DNA from: a virus
Virus record (IMG/VR): IMGVR_UViG_3300007523_000089
Location: 1-24,138 of that record
Length of the DNA: 24,138 bases
Strand: one strand, 5' to 3'
The position numbers and the translations under genes are program-made. Below, piece after piece: positions 8,731 to 23,576 of the stretch (positions are counted from its first letter, which is position 1; each line of letters starts with the position of its first letter). The notes under the pieces are model-generated. The model did not search any database and was not told where the DNA came from. It saw only the letters and a list, made by a program, of their open reading frames with translations.

Positions 8731-9161
8731 CCCTCCGGCAGACCGGCACCCCCCTCGACGTGCTGCTCGATAGCCTCGCCGCGTGGGCGGACGGCACCGT
8801 GCAGCACGACGTCGCCGTAGCCCTCGCGCAGTCGGGCGCGGGGTTGGTGCGCGACGGCTTCGCCCGGTCGAAGACCCCCGACGGCCAGCGCTGGGCGCCG
8901 CTGAAGCGCCCGCGCCCGGGCGGCCGCGTGCTCGTGAAGACCGGCCGGCTTCTCGCCGCCGCGCCGTTTTACCGGGTCGACCGCACCGGCTTCGTGATGG
9001 ACGCCGTCGACCGCGTCACCACCTACGGGGGCCTCCACATGACCGGCACCCGCACCATGCCCGCCCGCCCCTTCTACCCACAAGGCCAGCTCTCGACGGG
9101 CTGGTCGATCGTCCTCGCTGACGCGGCGGACGCCGCTGCGCGCATCCACATCCCCCGATGA
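8727..9161 (+). CDS. Tail completion / virion morphogenesis protein (gpG-like)
   Basis: A 144-residue protein with a GTG start (8727) overlapping the upstream TGA by 4 bases. The diagnostic stretch of phage virion morphogenesis proteins (PF05069 type) is present: TPDGQRWAPLKRPRPGG (50-66), VKTGRLLAA (70-78), a central strand region, and a C-terminal MPARPFYP motif (111-118). In Mu and P2 relatives this protein helps finish the tail or its junction with the head. The fold is short and basic in the first half. Function is assigned from these motifs and from the location between the DUF1320-like gene and the sheath. Confidence 0.85.
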   Translation: MTLRQTGTPLDVLLDSLAAWADGTVQHDVAVALAQSGAGLVRDGFARSKTPDGQRWAPLKRPRPGGRVLVKTGRLLAAAPFYRVDRTGFVMDAVDRVTTYGGLHMTGTRTMPARPFYPQGQLSTGWSIVLADAADAAARIHIPR

Positions 9162-9700
9162 GCACTGCCACCACCACGCTGCGCGCCGAGGTCACGGCGG
9201 TCATGGCGGACGTTGCGGTCGACGTGCCCGGCGTCGCCACGACCATCGGCCGGCGCGAGGTCGCGGCGCACCAGAGCCCGCCAATGGTCGGGTGGCTGCT
9301 CGCCTCCGAGCAGCCCACGGGCGCGCGCAAAAACGCCTTTCCGGGCGGGCGGCGCGAGATCTACTCCTCGCTGCTCACCCTCACGGTGCGTTGCTGGGGG
9401 ATCGCCGCGACGCCCGATCGCACCTACGCCACCGACGACGTCGAGGCGGTGTTGCTCCTGCGCGAAAGCGTCATCGCGTGCCTGCACCGGCGCTTCCCTG
9501 GCGTCGCCGTGTGGAGCCGCGCAACATACGTGACCGACCCCTCCGCTTCGGACCTCGGCGAGCTCGTCGACCTCGCGATCACCCTCCCGGTCGGCGTGCT
9601 CGACCGCGCCCCGCTCCGCGCCACCGTCACCACCGCCACCCTCGCCCCCCCCGCCGTGCCCTTCGCGGACGGCCTTCTATCGCCCGGAGAAACCGCGTGA
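9158..9700 (+). CDS. Probable tail terminator / head-tail joining protein
   Basis: A 180-residue protein in an ATGA overlap with the gpG-like gene and a GTGA overlap with the sheath gene. It has an N-terminal helix (TTLRAEVTAVMADVAVDVPG), a strand with PPMVGWLLASEQ, a conspicuous RREIYSSLLTLTVRCWG strand, a long helix with EAVLLLRESVIACLHRRFPG and a closing strand ELVDLAITLPVGV. This alpha/beta order (helix, strand pair, helix, strand) is that of tail terminators (Mu gp37/lambda gpU-like), and the slot just before the sheath is where Mu-like phages carry that gene. The C-terminal 40 residues are Ala/Pro/Thr-rich. No strong sequence signature is seen, so the name rests on layout and pattern. 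Confidence 0.55.
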   Translation: MSTATTTLRAEVTAVMADVAVDVPGVATTIGRREVAAHQSPPMVGWLLASEQPTGARKNAFPGGRREIYSSLLTLTVRCWGIAATPDRTYATDDVEAVLLLRESVIACLHRRFPGVAVWSRATYVTDPSASDLGELVDLAITLPVGVLDRAPLRATVTTATLAPPAVPFADGLLSPGETA

Positions 9701-11457
9701 CCACCCTCCTCAACGTCCTCACCATCCTCGACGGCGGCCTCGGCGTCGTCGCCCCCGGCGGCAGTCCCGTCGCCGTCGTCGGCTGCTGCTCGGCGGGCAC
9801 CGTCGCCACGCCCGTGACCTGCTACACGCCGGCGCAGCTCGTCGCCGCGGGCGGGTACGGCCCCGCGGTCGACGACGCCGCGATCATCCTCGATCGGTCG
9901 GGCGGTCCCGTCATCCTCTGCCGCGCGGCGACCGTCACCGCGGCCGTGCTCGGCGGATTCAGCCAGAGCGGCGCCGGGTCGGGCGCGGCGGGCACCATCG
10001 CGGCGGGCGGCGGGAACACCTCAACGGCCGTCTTCTCGCTCACCGGCACCGCCACCCAGCGCGTGGCGGTGGCGATCAAGGTCACCACCGCGGGCGCCAA
10101 CCTCGCGGGCTCGCCTGCCATCGCGATCAGCTTCGACGGCGGGGTGTCCTACCTCGCGCCGCAGGTCGCGCTCGCGGGCCCCACGGTCATCGGCTTCGGG
10201 CTCTCGCTCACCATCGTCGACGGCACCTTCGTGCTCGCCGACACCTTCAGCGCGGTCGGCGCGTCCTGCCCGACGCCCGCCGACGCCACCGGCACCAGCG
10301 TCCCGGCGTTCAGCGGCACGCCCCTCAGCGCGTTCCACATCGTCGCGCAGGTGATGACCGCCGCGGTGTCGCTGTCCGTGCTCACCGCCGCGGTGCGTTT
10401 CTCCCTCGACGGCGGGCGCTCCTACGGCGCCGCGGTGGGCATCCCCGCGACCGGGGTCTACGTGCTCCCGAACACCGGCATTACGGTGACCTTCGCCGCG
10501 GGCACCTTCGTGGTCGGCGACACCTTCGAGGTGCAGTCCGCGCCGCCGCTCTTCTCAACCACCACGCTTCGCGCGGCCCTCGACGGCCTCGCGACGGTGC
10601 GAGGCAGGTACGAGTTCGCGCACGTCGCTGGCGCCATCGACGTGACCCACGCCGCCCCGATGAGGGCCTGGGCCGTCGCGCGCGAGGCTCTCGGCGAGTA
10701 CGTGTTCGCCCTCGGCGGCACGCGCGATCAGGCCACGGGCGAGAGCGCGGTCACCTGGTACACGGCGCTTGGCGGCGCTTCCCCGGGCTTCACTGGCTAC
10801 GACGGGGGCCGCTACCTCGACGTGCACGCCTCTCACGGCTACGTCGAGAGCGCGATCTACCCGGGCAGCTACTTCCGCCGCAACCTCTCGGTGCTGCGGT
10901 CGGCGCGGCTCGCGAGCATCCCCCTCCAGGAGCACCCCGGGCGCGTGAAGTCGGGCGCGATCGTCGGCCTCATGGCCGATGGCGACGAGTCCAGCCTGAT
11001 CCACGACGGCGCCGTGCTCACGGTCCTCGACGCGAGCCGCTTCAGCACCTCGCAGTCGGTGCTCGGTCAGCCGCGCGGGTCGTACTTCTTCACCAGCCGC
11101 ACGCTGGCGCTGACCACGTCGGACTTCGGCGAGGTCCAGCGCATCCGCGTGATGTGCGTCGGCGCCGCCGCCGCGCTCTACGCGATGAGCCTCTACGTCG
11201 GCGAAGACCTGGAGACGAAGACGGACGGGTCGGGCCAGCTCGCTGAAGCCGCCGCCGCCGTCATCGACGAGGAGGTCACTGCCGCCATGAAGCGCGCCAT
11301 CGTCGACGCGCCCAATGCCTTCGCGACGCGCGTCACGGTCGCGGCCGACCGCACCATCGACCTGCTCTCCACCGGCCAGATCGCCGCCGCGGTCTCCATC
11401 GTCCCGCGCGGAAGCGTCAACGCGGTCACCACCACCATCACCTTCTCGCGGAGCTGA
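9697..11457 (+). CDS. Tail sheath protein (DUF2586-like) with two inserted beta repeats
   Basis: A 586-residue protein from the GTG at 9697 (GTGA overlap). The sheath contracts around the tube to drive it into the cell. The N-terminal region (VLTILDGGLGVV, VAVVGCCSAG, YTPAQLVAAGGYGP, GGPVILCRA) and the C-terminal half (HVAGAIDVTHAAP, YLDVHASHGYVESA, RRNLSVLRSARLASIPLQEH, DASRFSTSQSVLGQPRGSYF, VTVAADRTIDLLSTGQIAAA) follow the DUF2586-type sheath found in some Mu-like phages. Between them, residues about 112-188 and 204-283 are two related beta modules, each containing SFDGG/SLDGG-x-SY and ending xGTFV-x-x-DTF. They are probably surface-exposed insertions. The next gene encodes the matching tube. 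Confidence 0.85.
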   Translation: MTTLLNVLTILDGGLGVVAPGGSPVAVVGCCSAGTVATPVTCYTPAQLVAAGGYGPAVDDAAIILDRSGGPVILCRAATVTAAVLGGFSQSGAGSGAAGTIAAGGGNTSTAVFSLTGTATQRVAVAIKVTTAGANLAGSPAIAISFDGGVSYLAPQVALAGPTVIGFGLSLTIVDGTFVLADTFSAVGASCPTPADATGTSVPAFSGTPLSAFHIVAQVMTAAVSLSVLTAAVRFSLDGGRSYGAAVGIPATGVYVLPNTGITVTFAAGTFVVGDTFEVQSAPPLFSTTTLRAALDGLATVRGRYEFAHVAGAIDVTHAAPMRAWAVAREALGEYVFALGGTRDQATGESAVTWYTALGGASPGFTGYDGGRYLDVHASHGYVESAIYPGSYFRRNLSVLRSARLASIPLQEHPGRVKSGAIVGLMADGDESSLIHDGAVLTVLDASRFSTSQSVLGQPRGSYFFTSRTLALTTSDFGEVQRIRVMCVGAAAALYAMSLYVGEDLETKTDGSGQLAEAAAAVIDEEVTAAMKRAIVDAPNAFATRVTVAADRTIDLLSTGQIAAAVSIVPRGSVNAVTTTITFSRS

Positions 11458-14728: not shown

Positions 14729-15285
14729 GCATCCCATCGCCCTTCGACGACGCGGAGACCTGGGACACGCTGGTCATCGGAGGCGTCCTCTTTCGGGGCA
14801 CCTTCGAGTGGGGCGGCGACCTCATCAAGCGGAAGCTGGACCAGCGCCACGCCCCGGGCCGCGACGGCGCGCGCGTGCGGGACAAGGGCTACGACCTCGC
14901 CGAGATCGACTTAACGCTCACGGTGATCGACACGCCGCAGTGGGAGGACCTCCAGGCGATCATCGGCGTGGTCTTCCCGCGCGGCACCTCGCCGACCCCT
15001 CGCAACGCGCTCTCGTGTCTGCACCCCCAGCTCGCCGTCGCCGGCATCACGAAGCTCTACGGCACGTCGATGGGGCCGCTCTCGCAGGCGGGGCCCACGA
15101 AGTGGACCGCCACGTTGAAGTTCGTCGAGTTCCGCGCCTCGGCGCAGGTCTCGCGCAACGTCTCTCGCACCCCGCCCGCGGCCCCTGACATCGGCGCGAA
15201 TCGCACGGCCTTCACCGGCACCGAGACCGCGCCCGCACCCACGCCGCCGCCCACGCCGGGCCCCGGACGGAGACCCACCCCATGA
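14725..15285 (+). CDS. Baseplate / hub-adaptor candidate (unrecognised family)
   Basis: A 186-residue protein with GTG start overlapping the tape measure stop. Residues 1-150 read as a compact mostly beta fold: GVLFRGTFEWGGDLIKRKLD, then RDGARVRDKGYDLAEIDLTL, QWEDLQAIIGVVFPRG, ALSCLHPQLAVAGITKLYGT and KWTATLKFVEF. The 'gyel.ev.i.l....' plus 'W..l......' arrangement resembles small phage proteins that follow the tape measure and fill the gpN/LysM-adaptor slot in Mu-like and related phages. I cannot name the family. The C-terminus (about 157-186) is a Pro/Thr-rich tail (APAPTPPPTPGPGRRPTP). It probably bridges tube and hub. Overlaps the hub gene by 4 bases. Confidence 0.6.
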   Translation: MSIPSPFDDAETWDTLVIGGVLFRGTFEWGGDLIKRKLDQRHAPGRDGARVRDKGYDLAEIDLTLTVIDTPQWEDLQAIIGVVFPRGTSPTPRNALSCLHPQLAVAGITKLYGTSMGPLSQAGPTKWTATLKFVEFRASAQVSRNVSRTPPAAPDIGANRTAFTGTETAPAPTPPPTPGPGRRPTP

Positions 15286-18015: not shown

Positions 18016-18459
18016 CTACCGCTCGCAGGCGCAGTTCACGCAGAACTCGCCCGCCGAGCAGCTGACCCCGCACCCGCCGCAGTGGTAGGTGCGGCCGCCG
18101 TCCTGCTCCCCGCCCTGGACGTTCACGCTGCGCCCGTCGCACGTCGCGAGCACCCCGCGGCACACCTCGCTCTGGCGCGGGTCGACGTCGCGCGGCACGT
18201 CCGCCCCCGCATCGGCCACGCCCGCGTCGACGCCCACGTCCACCACCGTGAGCACGTCCACCGACGCCCCGCGATCCACCGCGACCGGCACGTCGGCACC
18301 CGCATCGACCGCCACGCACGCTCCCTCCGCACACACCGTCCCGAGGCCACAGGCGCCCCCGCAAGGCCCCGCGTCGGGCACCCCCGAGGCATCGGGCAGG
18401 AGCACCGGGTCAGCGGCGCAGGAGAGGGCGAGGAGAGCGAGGGCGAGTAGGTGGCGCAT
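18016..18459 (-). CDS. Secreted, Cys-rich lipoprotein on the opposite strand (moron-like cargo)
   Basis: A 147-residue protein, ATG at 18459, stop at 18016-18018. Signal: MRHLLALALLALSC, with lipobox L-A-L-S-C and predicted lipidated C14; the next residues are AAD with no Asp at +2, so outer-membrane sorting is expected. Cysteines C33, C37, C43 and C48 form the C-x3-C-x5-C-x4-C pattern of CGGACGLGTVCAEGACV, followed by an Asp/Val/Ala-rich linker with VDAG repeats, and a second cluster at 100, 107, 127, 130, 134, 140, 143 and 145. VDAG linkers and such Cys repeats are typical of Myxococcota lipoproteins. The gene is antisense to the tail operon and stands alone in a gap, as phage morons do. 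Surface change or superinfection exclusion are possible roles, not shown. The promoter was not found by eye; the start has only a weak GGGG ribosome site. Confidence 0.75.
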   Translation of the reverse strand: MRHLLALALLALSCAADPVLLPDASGVPDAGPCGGACGLGTVCAEGACVAVDAGADVPVAVDRGASVDVLTVVDVGVDAGVADAGADVPRDVDPRQSEVCRGVLATCDGRSVNVQGGEQDGGRTYHCGGCGVSCSAGEFCVNCACER

Positions 18460-20063: not shown

Positions 20064-20393
20064 ATGCCCGCGTACCTCTCCCGCATCGCCGTCGCCCACA
20101 CCCTCGTCGCAGGCGTCGCGCTCGCCATCGACCTCCCCGTCGACGGAGCGACGAACGCGCTCTACGTCGTGAAGAACACCGGTGCGAACCCCGTCACCGC
20201 TATGTCCGTCGCGCGCGCCCCCCTGGGCGTCGCGGAGCTCATCGAGACCGCCGTCGCCGTCGTCACGGGCATCCCCCTCGCGGCGGGGGCGTCGCTCCCG
20301 GTGCAGCTCACCAGCGAGCCCATCACCACGCTGCGCATCACGCTCACCTCGACGTCGGGCACCACCGTCCGCATCGCCGGGGGTGGCTGGTGA
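20064..20393 (+). CDS. Small beta-rich tail-associated protein
   Basis: A 109-residue protein with ATG at 20064 and GGAG at 20056-20059. An upstream extension is not needed, because the 59-base gap 20005-20063 holds only this ribosome site and no clear hairpin. The sequence (YLSRIAVAHTLVAGVALAID, TNALYVVKNTGANPVTAMSV, IPLAAGASLPVQLTSEPITT, LRITLTSTSGTTVRIAGGGW) reads as a single beta-sandwich. It lies between two fibre-like genes and ends in a GTGA overlap. It may be an adaptor or cap of the fibre, but I recognise no family. Confidence 0.6.
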   Translation: MPAYLSRIAVAHTLVAGVALAIDLPVDGATNALYVVKNTGANPVTAMSVARAPLGVAELIETAVAVVTGIPLAAGASLPVQLTSEPITTLRITLTSTSGTTVRIAGGGW

Positions 20394-21379
20394 TCAGCGT
20401 CGGCGGCGTCGTCGTCATCGGCGGCAGCGGTAGCGGCCTCCCCGCGGGCGCCCTCAACGGCCAGGTGATCCGAGACGTGGGCGGCGTCCCGACGTGGGTC
20501 GGCCCCGACGAGGTCGTCGGGGGTGGCCTTAGCGCCCTCCTCGCCGCCGACCTGTTGGGGACGACGATTATCGCAGACGGCCTGGGCTCCGCCACGGCGA
20601 CCAGCGTCGCGGTAGGCGCGCTGCTTGGCGCCGCCGACGCGGCTGCGATGCGGACGGCGCTGGCGTTCGCCCCCTCGACCCTCGCCGCGCAGGCACGCCT
20701 CGTCGCCGCCACGCGTCGAGGCCCCGTCGCCGCGGGCGGGTGGTCGGATACGGCCTACGTCGGGTCAGTCGCCGCGCCAGCCGCTGGCGCGCAGCCTTCG
20801 ATCGTGCGCGGCAGCACCTTCGTAATCACCCTCTATGTGCCCTCCTCGTCGGCGGGCGCGGGCGCGCACCTCGCGACGTCGGCGGACGGCGCCAGCCGCG
20901 GGTGGCTGATCGCGGAGGGCACCGGGGGCGGCGCGGGCGACCTCATCCTCTACAGCTGGTCAGATGCCGTCGCGGTCACGCTGCCCGGCGTCCTCACGAC
21001 GGCGGGGTGGCACACGAACGCTGTCTCCGTCTCCGTGGGTGGCGTCGTGCGCTACAGCCTCGACGGAGGCGCGGCAGCCGCCGCCACAGGCACACCGGCT
21101 CTGACGGTGCGCGACGCGGACGCCGTCCGGATCGGGAGGGGCATCGGAGGCGGCGCGTCGGGCGGCCTCACGGCGCTCGCGTACCTCGCCACCTGGGCGT
21201 CGGTGCTCGCCGACTCCGCTCTCGTGACGCTCTCGACGTCTCCCACCGCGGGCGCTCCCACGCTCCCGTCGGCGCCCGCGTGGGAGTGGGCGGCGGCGGC
21301 TCACCTCGGGTGCGGGCGCGTGACCGTCGGCGCGACCGTCTACGCCGTCACCGGGACGCCCTACCTGTGGATGCCATGA
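20390..21379 (+). CDS. Tail fibre with LamG-like lectin domain
   Basis: A 329-residue protein with GTG start in GTGA overlap. The N-terminal third is Gly/Val-rich (GSGSGLPAGALNGQVIRDVG) and includes GALLGAADAAAMRTALAF (76-93), resembling the 'aA.RtaLgl' motif common in phage tail fibres. Residues about 120-290 have the strand order of a LamG/concanavalin-A-type jelly roll: FVITLYVPSSSAGAG, GWLIAEGTGGGAG, LTTAGWHTNAVSVSVGGVVR, YSLDGG, DAVRIGRG and ALAYLATWASVLADSALVTL. Such domains bind sugars. The C-terminal end (CGRVTVGATVYAVTGTPYLW) may be a tip fold. It probably recognises host surface polysaccharide; the binding target is unknown. Confidence 0.65.
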   Translation: MISVGGVVVIGGSGSGLPAGALNGQVIRDVGGVPTWVGPDEVVGGGLSALLAADLLGTTIIADGLGSATATSVAVGALLGAADAAAMRTALAFAPSTLAAQARLVAATRRGPVAAGGWSDTAYVGSVAAPAAGAQPSIVRGSTFVITLYVPSSSAGAGAHLATSADGASRGWLIAEGTGGGAGDLILYSWSDAVAVTLPGVLTTAGWHTNAVSVSVGGVVRYSLDGGAAAAATGTPALTVRDADAVRIGRGIGGGASGGLTALAYLATWASVLADSALVTLSTSPTAGAPTLPSAPAWEWAAAAHLGCGRVTVGATVYAVTGTPYLWMP

Positions 21380-21948
21380 ACACGCAGCAGCACCTCTCGC
21401 CGTGGGCTATCGCGCTCGCGGAGATCAGCGCGGGCGCGCTCGCAGCGTCCGAGGGGCACCCGCACGTCCCGGCGTGGCTCGCGGGCGCGCTCGCTGCGCT
21501 CGTCGTCGGCATGGCGCTGCGGCTCATGGACCCGACGCTCAAGCTTCGTGGCGAGCGCCTCGCGCGTCGGCTGTCGGAGCCCCCCACCGCGCCGCTCACG
21601 CGGTCGGTGCTCGTCGTCGATGACGTCGCGGCCGTGCGCGAGCTCATGGCGATGGTCCTCCGCGACGCGCTCACCGTCCCGGTCTACGTCGCTTCGAGCG
21701 CAGCCGAGGCCCGCGCGATGTGGAACGCTCACCGCTGCGCCGTCGTCGTGTGCGACCTGATGCTGCCCGACGGCCTCGGCGACGAGGTGTTGTCCGCCCT
21801 CCCGCGCCGCGTGCGGGCCGTGCTGACGAGCGGCGTGGCCGACGAGTCGGCCCTCCACGCCAGCGCGACGGCGTGCCGCGCGACCCCGATGCACAAGCCG
21901 CTTGATCCTAGCGCGCTGCTCGCCGTCGTGCGAACGATGCTCGGATGA
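21376..21948 (+). CDS. Membrane-anchored response-regulator receiver (CheY-like) protein
   Basis: A 190-residue protein from the ATG at 21376 (ATGA overlap with the fibre gene). Residues 10-25 are weakly hydrophobic (one Glu), residues 31-51 (VPAWLAGALAALVVGMALRL) form a clear TM segment, and K56, R58, R61, R64, R65 follow, so the C-terminal domain should face the cytoplasm. Residues 77-190 are a receiver domain: SVLVVDD with D82-D83, phosphoacceptor D127 in VVVCDLMLPDG, switch T151 in LTSG, and K174-P175 in MHKPLD. All residues needed for Asp phosphorylation are present; the usual aromatic switch residue before Lys is missing. There is no DNA-binding or enzyme output domain. The N-terminal part could be a two-helix holin-like hairpin. 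It lies at the border of fibre and lysis genes. Confidence 0.85.
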   Translation: MNTQQHLSPWAIALAEISAGALAASEGHPHVPAWLAGALAALVVGMALRLMDPTLKLRGERLARRLSEPPTAPLTRSVLVVDDVAAVRELMAMVLRDALTVPVYVASSAAEARAMWNAHRCAVVVCDLMLPDGLGDEVLSALPRRVRAVLTSGVADESALHASATACRATPMHKPLDPSALLAVVRTMLG

Positions 21949-22196
21949 GCACCCCCCAGGAGCACCATGCCCACGCTGACCACCACTGGATCGACACGCA
22001 CCCGCTCGACGGCCGGTGCGCGGTGACGCTCGCGGGCGCCATCGCGCTGCTCCCGCCCCGCTGGCGATGGACCGTCCACAACCTCATCGCGCACCCGCTC
22101 TCCGAGCTGCTCTTCCAGGTCGGCGCTGAGCGCCTCGGCACCCGCATCCACGACGCAACCATCCCCGCGGTCGGTGCCCCCGACCCCCGCGGCTGA
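21945..22196 (+). CDS. Small phage protein of VHNLIAHP type
   Basis: An 83-residue protein with ATG at 21945 in ATGA overlap. The N-terminal 17 residues are His-rich (MSTPQEHHAHADHHWID), followed by RCAVTLAGAIALLPPRWRWT, then VHNLIAHPLSELLFQVGAER and LGTRIHDATIP. The 'W..HNLIAHPl.E......g...l...iHdaT.P' signature is, as I recall, shared by uncharacterised small proteins of phages; I cannot assign a function. It is amphipathic with a possible short membrane-associated stretch (AVTLAGAIALL). The first codons coincide with one copy of a direct repeat that also forms the start of the next gene in another frame. Confidence 0.6.
   Translation: MSTPQEHHAHADHHWIDTHPLDGRCAVTLAGAIALLPPRWRWTVHNLIAHPLSELLFQVGAERLGTRIHDATIPAVGAPDPRG
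21957..21985 (+). repeat. Direct repeat copy A (initiation region)
   Basis: 29 bases beginning caggagcaccatgcccacg. It matches copy B at 22197-22225 at 27 of 29 positions, with 240 bases between corresponding positions. A second matching block, tggatcgac, follows at 21987-21995. In this copy the ATG (21967) opens a frame that stops after 19 codons, so it lies inside the real gene in a different frame. Confidence 0.85.
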
Positions 22197-22225
22197 CAGG
22201 AGCCCCATGCCCACGCTGACCGCCA
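22197..22225 (+). repeat. Direct repeat copy B (ribosome site and start of the two-TM gene)
   Basis: The counterpart of the repeat at 21957-21985, 27 of 29 identical. It contains AGGAG and the ATG of the next gene (22207) plus its first codons; the tggatcgac block recurs at 22234-22242. The copy spacing is 240 bases for the first block and 247 for the second. Confidence 0.85.
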
Positions 22226-22869
22226 TCACCCGTTGGATCGACGCCCACGCGCTGTCCCTCCCCCTCTACCTCGCGCTCGCCACCGGCCTCCTGCGCGCGG
22301 CCTACGCGCTCGCGTCGCGCATCCTCGCGCCGTACCCGCGCGCTCGCGCCGCCGTCGAGGCCTGCGCCGCGCTCGCGCCCGACGTGCTGCGCTTCATGCA
22401 GCAGGTCTTCCTGCTGCTGACGGGCCGCCCGATGCCCTCGACGCAGCCGGTGAGCGTGGTCCCCGCGCCGCCCGCCGATGACACCCCGGCCGACGGCGAC
22501 CGGCACGCGAGCATCGTCCCGCCGCCCCCGTCGCCGCTGCGCGCGGTCACCATCCGACACCGCCCGCCCCCTGCGCCCGACGGGCAGCGGGGGAGCGCGA
22601 GCGTGCGGGCGCTGATCGTCTTCGTGGTGGCGCTCACCGTGGTGCTCCCCCTCGGGGCCGCGCTCACCGGCTGCCCCAACTGGCAGCGCCCTGTGTGCCC
22701 CGCGCCCGGCGTGTACGCCTGCGTCGCTGACCAGCCCGCGGTGTGCAGCCCCAGCGGCGAGCAGACGCCCATCGGCGACGAGCCGTGCTCGGCGCAGGGC
22801 CGCGTGTGCGTCCTCCGCGCCGACGGCGTCGCCTACTGCGCCCGATCGACGGACGGGGGTGCGCTGTGA
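22207..22869 (+). CDS. Two-TM protein ending in a Cys-rich lipoprotein-like domain
   Basis: A 220-residue protein; the ATG at 22207 has AGGAG at 22198-22202. Residues 18-40 form a TM segment (LPLYLALATGLLRAAYALAS), 47-72 a helix, and about 76-120 a Pro-rich linker. Residues 134-155 form a second hydrophobic segment that ends in L-T-G-C156, a lipobox-like site. The last 65 residues have six more cysteines (164, 172, 180, 194, 201, 211) in a CPAPGVYACVADQPAVC type arrangement like myxobacterial secreted domains. The middle lipobox suggests either a fused inner-membrane and lipoprotein unit or two products. It lies between small lysis-region genes; a spanin-like or holin role is plausible and unproven. 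Confidence 0.6.
   Translation: MPTLTAITRWIDAHALSLPLYLALATGLLRAAYALASRILAPYPRARAAVEACAALAPDVLRFMQQVFLLLTGRPMPSTQPVSVVPAPPADDTPADGDRHASIVPPPPSPLRAVTIRHRPPPAPDGQRGSASVRALIVFVVALTVVLPLGAALTGCPNWQRPVCPAPGVYACVADQPAVCSPSGEQTPIGDEPCSAQGRVCVLRADGVAYCARSTDGGAL
22589..22605 (+). promoter_or_regulatory. Internal ribosome site and GTG start for a nested lipoprotein
   Basis: GGGGGAG at 22589-22595, 7 bases, then GTG at 22603-22605, in frame with the gene around it. Initiation here would give a 88-residue protein, VRALIVFVVALTVVLPLGAA then LTGC, with a basic second residue, hydrophobic core and lipobox at C24: a complete lipoprotein signal peptide. Confidence 0.5.
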
Positions 22870-23576
22870 TCCCCGCCGCTCGTCTCGAAGAGGTCGCCGC
22901 GCAACTCGAAGCCGCGCTCTGCGCCGAGCTCGGCGCCACCGTCGTCACGAAGCGCGAGAGCTTCGGGCACCGGGGCATCGCGTTCGCGTTCGACGCCGTC
23001 GCCGCTGGCGCGTCCAAGCTGTTCGAGCTCGCCACGCTCGTGTCGATCAACCCGCCGCTGTTCGGTCTGCCGAGCGGCGCGCAGTACCTCGACGACTACG
23101 CCACCACGATTGCCACCGAGATCGCGCTGCCCGCGGCGTGGCGCGCTCCCGCTGGCGCCGTCACGCGGCTGATCGTCGAGCCACACGAGGGCGTCCACGT
23201 CGAGCAGCACAAGCGCGGCGTCGAAGCCGGCTGGTGGCCCCGCAAGGTGGGGCACAGCGTGCTCTACCTGTGCAGCATCGCGACCGATGACGCCGCGGAG
23301 TACCTCGGGCACGTCGAGGCCGACGCGTACGCCACGACGGAGTGCGTGCGCGCCTGGCTGACTGGCGGCCCGCGGCGCCCCATCGCGGAGATCGTCGACA
23401 GCCTGCGCCGCCACTACGCGCTGCGCCCCGCTGGCGCCGCCGTCGCGGAGGCCACGCTGCGGTCGCACTACGCCACGATGGATGACGGGGGCGTGCCACC
23501 GGTCACGGTGTGCCGCTGGACGATCGCGTGGCTCGACGAGCACGCGCCCGACCTGCGCGGACAGGTGAGCGCGTGA
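22866..23576 (+). CDS. Zinc metallopeptidase-like protein with HExxH motif
   Basis: A 236-residue protein with GTG start in GTGA overlap. The motif EPHEGVHVEQHKRG (105-118) contains H107-E108-G-V-H111, the HExxH zinc site, and GHVEADAYATTE (149-160) provides E151 as probable third ligand, in the E-x-x-A-Y context seen in gluzincin-like proteins. The spacing between the motifs, 40 residues, is normal. The N-terminal part (about 1-100) is helical with ESFGHRGIAFAFDAVAAGA. It has no signal peptide, so it needs the holin or acts inside the cell. The surrounding genes include an M15-type peptidase, so it may be part of lysis, or may cleave a host protein. The exact family was not identified. Confidence 0.65.
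   Translation: MIPAARLEEVAAQLEAALCAELGATVVTKRESFGHRGIAFAFDAVAAGASKLFELATLVSINPPLFGLPSGAQYLDDYATTIATEIALPAAWRAPAGAVTRLIVEPHEGVHVEQHKRGVEAGWWPRKVGHSVLYLCSIATDDAAEYLGHVEADAYATTECVRAWLTGGPRRPIAEIVDSLRRHYALRPAGAAVAEATLRSHYATMDDGGVPPVTVCRWTIAWLDEHAPDLRGQVSA

Follow-up and report, generated by a model that had tools for sequence, protein, structure and literature searches.

How phages match the timing of lysis to host state has long been asked, and the known answers involve holin clocks, antiholins, and superinfection signals. Class II holins are recognized by two transmembrane (TM) segments, an N-in/C-in topology, and a charged tail. On the side of host signaling, single-domain response regulators such as CheY, DivK, and Spo0F consist of a receiver fold with an acidic pair, a phospho-accepting Asp, a conserved Ser/Thr, and a Lys, without an output domain, and they are soluble cellular proteins with known kinases. 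A cytoplasmic regulatory segment on a membrane lysis protein has been described for the gp63 pinholin of phage N4, where it is proposed to receive a lysis-delaying signal; however, the name "Receiver domain" is there a label for a cluster of mutations and is not presented as a two-component receiver (PMC12642591). Receivers are also carried on phage genomes, such as CDS-30 of Alteromonas phage V22, listed as an auxiliary gene, and the receiver-like cREC domain of jumbo phages, which is linked to NAD/ADP-ribose enzymes (PMC7824862), and the accessible parts of these two sources do not report either of them in a lysis module. Across the open-access literature searched, phage receivers exist and none was placed in a lysis module. 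The new aspect of the locus described here is a known receiver domain put to work in such a module.

The window, that is, the whole 24,138-base virus record analyzed, carries terminase, portal, head protease, capsid, tail sheath, tape measure, and baseplate J genes in this order, and this structural gene set of a contractile-tail phage bears out the phage origin originally supposed. The gene under study encodes a membrane-anchored receiver protein (Table 1). Its ATG overlaps the stop codon of the upstream fibre-like gene, its own stop codon overlaps the ATG of the downstream gene (ATGA in both cases), so that translation probably proceeds in line with the late genes. GC content by codon position is similar in the N-terminal half (0.77/0.56/0.92) and the receiver half (0.77/0.50/0.92), and the frame and sequence are the same in a twin contig (IMGVR_UViG_3300007722_002801), so that neither a frameshift joint, which could have attached the TM part of another protein to the receiver, nor chance accounts for the reading frame; together with the Response_reg match, these data rule out a chance ORF or a wrong frame. 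Outside the identical receiver gene the twin differs from the window at 14 sites, and five of these lie in one 120-base stretch (21127-21245) of the fibre-like gene, a pattern that fits a fast-changing receptor-binding part.

Table 1. Coordinates of the receiver gene, its domains and residues, and its neighbors in the window.
Feature	Position	Strand	Basis
Fibre-like gene upstream, weak Laminin_G_3 match	20390..21379	+	stop overlaps receiver ATG
Whole gene, membrane-anchored receiver protein, 190 aa	21376..21948	+	translation; Response_reg E=1.2e-11; twin contig identical
Helical hairpin, residues 9-51	21400..21528	+	model; hydropathy
Basic helix, residues 53-66, indicating cytoplasmic C-terminal side	21532..21573	+	model; sequence
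Receiver domain, residues 75-189, complete (beta-alpha)5	21598..21942	+	Pfam, model, PDB matches
Acidic pocket D82-D83	21619..21624	+	alignments
Predicted phospho-acceptor D127 (VVCDL)	21754..21756	+	alignments
Conserved Ser/Thr switch position S152 (VLTSG)	21829..21831	+	alignments; end of model strand 147-152
Conserved Lys K174 (KP motif)	21895..21897	+	alignments
Small protein phrog_36447, function unknown, ATGA-coupled to receiver gene	21945..22196	+	PHROG match; overlap
Membrane protein joined to Cys-rich lipoprotein (LTGC); holin-like by position only	22207..22869	+	31% identity to L064:15240-15836
HExxH (HEGVH) metallopeptidase-like protein	22866..23576	+	L064 homologue HEWTH; L088 protein at same place HEHEH
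Probable lysin, HxxGxAxD (M15/VanY-like) motif, cut by contig end	23752..24138	+	sequence; tentative

Pfam Response_reg (PF00072) matches residues 78-185 with 45.1 bits against a cut-off of 30.2, and the AlphaFold2 model of the protein, made from a seven-row alignment with a mean pLDDT of 76, gives the five strands and five helices of the receiver fold that had been predicted. The best solved structures matching the model are RR468, CheY, Spo0F, and similar receivers, with a target-normalized TM-score of about 0.8-0.87 for the CheY/RR468-type matches. D82, D83, D127, and K174 stand at the positions named in the original prediction, which was one residue off for the conserved Ser/Thr: it had named T151, whereas relatives read VLTSG, VLASG, or VLMSG, so that SG is the kept part and S152 the conserved residue; the preceding T151 is Ala in the L064 homologue, which retains SG. 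No aromatic residue is found at the position of CheY Y106. By fold, profile, and residues, the domain as modeled is a bona fide receiver, and its phosphorylation is predicted. The 190 residues hold only a hairpin and the receiver, and an output domain, whose absence had been claimed, is seen neither by Pfam nor in the model. The protein thus resembles CheY, DivK, and Spo0F in its fold, residue set, and lack of an output domain, but differs from them in being a phage late gene product with its own membrane hairpin. Identity with cREC was considered and ruled out, since Pfam gave no PF20274 match in the protein and its neighbors are fibre and lysis genes, not NAD/ADP-ribose enzymes.

In the same model the N-terminal part forms helices 9-27 and 33-51, followed by the basic helix. 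Helix 33-51 is a clear TM segment (Kyte-Doolittle 1.88), and helix 9-27 is weakly hydrophobic (peak 1.27; it contains E16), so the protein may pass the membrane once or twice. A TM segment or hairpin had been proposed at about residues 10-51; the hairpin is borne out by the model and the second helix stands, and the first helix is only a weak TM candidate. The C-terminal side had been placed in the cytoplasm by the positive-inside rule, and the basic helix directly after the hairpin supports this. In the size of its modeled hairpin, its predicted basic cytoplasmic tail, and its location in the lysis region, the protein may be likened to class II holins. It differs from them by a receiver of about 115 residues instead of a short tail, by the low hydrophobicity of its first helix, and by having no holin family match, either for the N-terminal 77 residues in Pfam or for the whole protein in PHROGs. 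From sequence and model, it is at most holin-like.

The neighboring membrane protein likewise gave no holin family match in Pfam or PHROGs; it is joined to the lipoprotein in the window and in the relative L064, and the two are separate ORFs in the relative L088. No family match was obtained for the HExxH proteins of the window, L064 (15833-16546), and L088 (7393-8100), and the HExxH protein of the cassette is possibly a new lysis-associated metallopeptidase. The lysin call at the contig end is tentative because it has no Pfam match. In the tail/fibre region, Cys-rich lipoprotein-like genes lie on the minus strand (18016-18459 in the window, L010:12689-13336, L016:12965-13348, and L064:12056-12898), possibly encoding surface cargo or a superinfection-exclusion lipoprotein.

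When single sequences (P0001, the fibre protein, and baseplate J) were used as queries, the twin contig alone was recovered, and alignments were needed for the other relatives. A baseplate J profile retrieved 48 related viral loci, and a Pfam receiver scan of 51 related records (these loci and three named phages) matched only the twin; the receivers of other family members fall under Pfam's cut-off. Profiles of the fibre, the lipoprotein, the receiver, and the TM/coil protein recruited L064, L073, L076, and L088, respectively, which makes five distinct receiver-bearing contigs, with the window and its twin counted once, all of them uncultured. Each of the four relatives encodes a receiver of 129-130 residues separate from the TM part, and their order is fibre-like genes, a TM/coil protein (a single TM segment at the N-terminus plus a long coiled coil), the receiver, its gene beginning before that of the TM/coil protein has ended, a small membrane protein, and a Cys-rich lipoprotein, followed farther downstream, where the contig is long enough, by an HExxH protein and then a lysin. 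In L088 this lysin is a clear Amidase_2 endolysin (E=6.5e-14; PHROG endolysin), and the region is thereby identified as a lysis cassette. Gene order in the window is the same, except that TM hairpin and receiver form one protein, whose gene is followed by a small one. The original placement of the receiver beside lysis genes and after fibre genes is therefore borne out both in the window and in its four relatives.

The window protein can be regarded, by analogy, as a fusion of a TM/coil protein and a receiver. Homology of its hairpin to the TM/coil proteins is unsupported, with none detectable by hhalign (probability 0.3%), and neither the hairpin nor the TM/coil protein nor the L088 receiver had a homologue in a collection of named phages. 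At the end of contig L010, which is among the closest relatives, a truncated ORF (14894-15086) after a TM/coil-like gene resembles the beginning of a receiver (LARCVLVADDS); compared with the window protein, it scores no better than shuffles (777 of 2000), and L010 was left out of the receiver-bearing count as a lead only. In the 51-record Pfam scan, no receiver was seen in most of the phages related by baseplate J, indicating that lysis in general does not need one.

The receiver-bearing phages are of more than one type. L064 and the window are collinear across the tail genes (sheath 39%, J 42%, and tail protein I 54% identity), except that in L064 baseplate J stands after the first fibre gene, and L076 has other sheath and capsid families with no detectable match to the structural genes of the window. 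L088 shares 92% identity with L076 over 7.8 kb, and L074 (the entire L073 contig) aligns to it at 82% over 2.7 kb. The L073 receiver is modeled with confidence as a receiver fold (pLDDT 91; PDB matches), and the three other stand-alone receivers are 70-71% identical to it. The window receiver is about 27% identical to that of L073, and all five receivers keep [DE]-D, V[VL]CDL, VLxSG, and KP, with E-D, VLCDL, VLxSG, and KP in each of the four stand-alone ones. Decay of the receiver residues among homologues, which would have spoken against a phospho-receiver, was thus not seen. The dN/dS ratio is 0.42-0.44 in three pairs and about 0.7 in the closest pair, L076/L088, where changes are few, and given the latter value the constraint may be modest. 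In a tree the window receiver groups with the phage receivers against 33 others (99/91), on long branches, and a common origin of the window and other phage receivers is likely.

Blastn comparison of L064 with L076, L074, and L088 revealed 80-83% identity over about 1.15-1.26 kb, and one further match of 167 bases between L064 and L088; tblastx, swamped by compositional noise, was disregarded. The shared block begins at the TM/coil gene and ends within the next membrane-protein gene, and such a sharp block between phages with different structural genes shows that the TM/coil gene, the receiver, and part of the membrane-protein gene were exchanged together. Judged from these alignments, the block travels as a part of the lysis module, and this transfer is the best evidence for the receiver working with lysis-module membrane proteins. 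The receiver thus recurs in a mobile lysis module, in most cases next to a TM/coiled-coil protein encoded separately.

As originally noted, the window carries no histidine kinase, and a HATPase_c search found none either in the incomplete contigs L004, L010, L064, L073, and L076, so the cognate kinase nearby by which a two-component system is recognized is missing from the contigs searched. The bacterial receivers recovered in one genome scan are the C-terminal receivers of long, hybrid-kinase-like Hydrogenophaga proteins (L005/L006), which share 31-32% identity and an MHKPxDP-like motif with the window receiver, and the best NCBIfam match of the window protein is a histidine kinase family with a C-terminal receiver; the window protein differs from these in lacking a kinase domain and in having its membrane part directly before the receiver. 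Relatives by baseplate J include Myxococcus phage Mx4, and a myxobacterial host (perhaps a member of Myxococcota) is plausible; Thermus and Meiothermus phages are equally near by that protein. Separately, the locus L077:6608-13306 (IMGVR_UViG_3300030606_000543) holds a membrane histidine kinase with HisKA and HATPase_c (8938-9993) and two receiver proteins beside it (9962-10402 and 10421-11032). With a phage portal gene on one side and a Mu F-like head gene on the other, these three look like an entire two-component system set within a phage structural module.

The roles originally proposed were a lysis timer, a decoy or phosphate sink, and a reporter of cell state. We tentatively favor, at somewhat less than an even chance, the reading that the protein is a membrane-tethered single-receiver switch of the lysis module that couples a host phosphosignal to lysis. 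Late in infection the protein would lie in the inner membrane with its receiver facing the cytoplasm, and D127 would be phosphorylated, or not, by a host histidine kinase, a phosphotransfer protein, or a small phosphodonor. The changed receiver surface would alter self-association or association with the neighboring membrane protein, by which membrane permeabilization would be advanced or delayed. In the relatives this job would be split between the TM/coiled-coil protein and a separate receiver from an overlapping gene, and in the window it would be done by one chain. It is unlikely, in our estimate, that the receiver is instead a protein-binding or anchoring domain of a lysis complex, not phosphorylated in use; the stretch between D and S varies widely among family members, the stand-alone members score below Pfam's cut-off, and no phage kinase was found, all of which would fit such docking, yet none of the acidic pair, D, S, and K has been lost at an identity of only about 27%, unlike in pseudo-receivers, where one or more of these residues are usually missing.

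The place of the gene bears on two further explanations, both of lower probability. The receiver could be a decoy or phosphate sink that drains host kinases or titrates a host phosphorelay, blunting a stress or development response. Stand-alone receivers are in principle capable of this, the bacterial receivers found belong to hybrid-kinase-like proteins, and a membrane tether would put the receiver beside sensor kinases; nevertheless, one would look for a decoy among early genes, unlinked to the lysis block, whereas this gene lies in a late lysis cassette and the receiver travels with a membrane protein of that cassette, which makes the explanation rather improbable. We give slightly less weight again to host-derived cargo (a moron) acting in lysogens or on host behavior and merely adjoining the lysis genes. 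Other cargo-like genes, the antisense Cys-rich lipoproteins, occur in the same region, and one report lists a phage receiver gene elsewhere as auxiliary (PMC7289586), but the ATGA coupling to neighbors on both sides, the same place in two phage types, and the joint transfer with the lysis block are not what cargo would lead one to expect.

Under the switch reading preferred here, a conserved phospho-receiver in a lysis module would give the phage direct access to host signaling at the protein level, for which D127 offers a one-residue test, and the window protein adds a membrane-anchored receiver to the response-regulator repertoire. In its widest and more doubtful form, this would mean that a membrane component of lysis stands directly under host two-component phosphorelays, through a mobile module with a built-in phospho-receiver that is in some cases joined to a holin-like hairpin; lysis would then be timed by the physiological state of the host with no transcriptional step in between.
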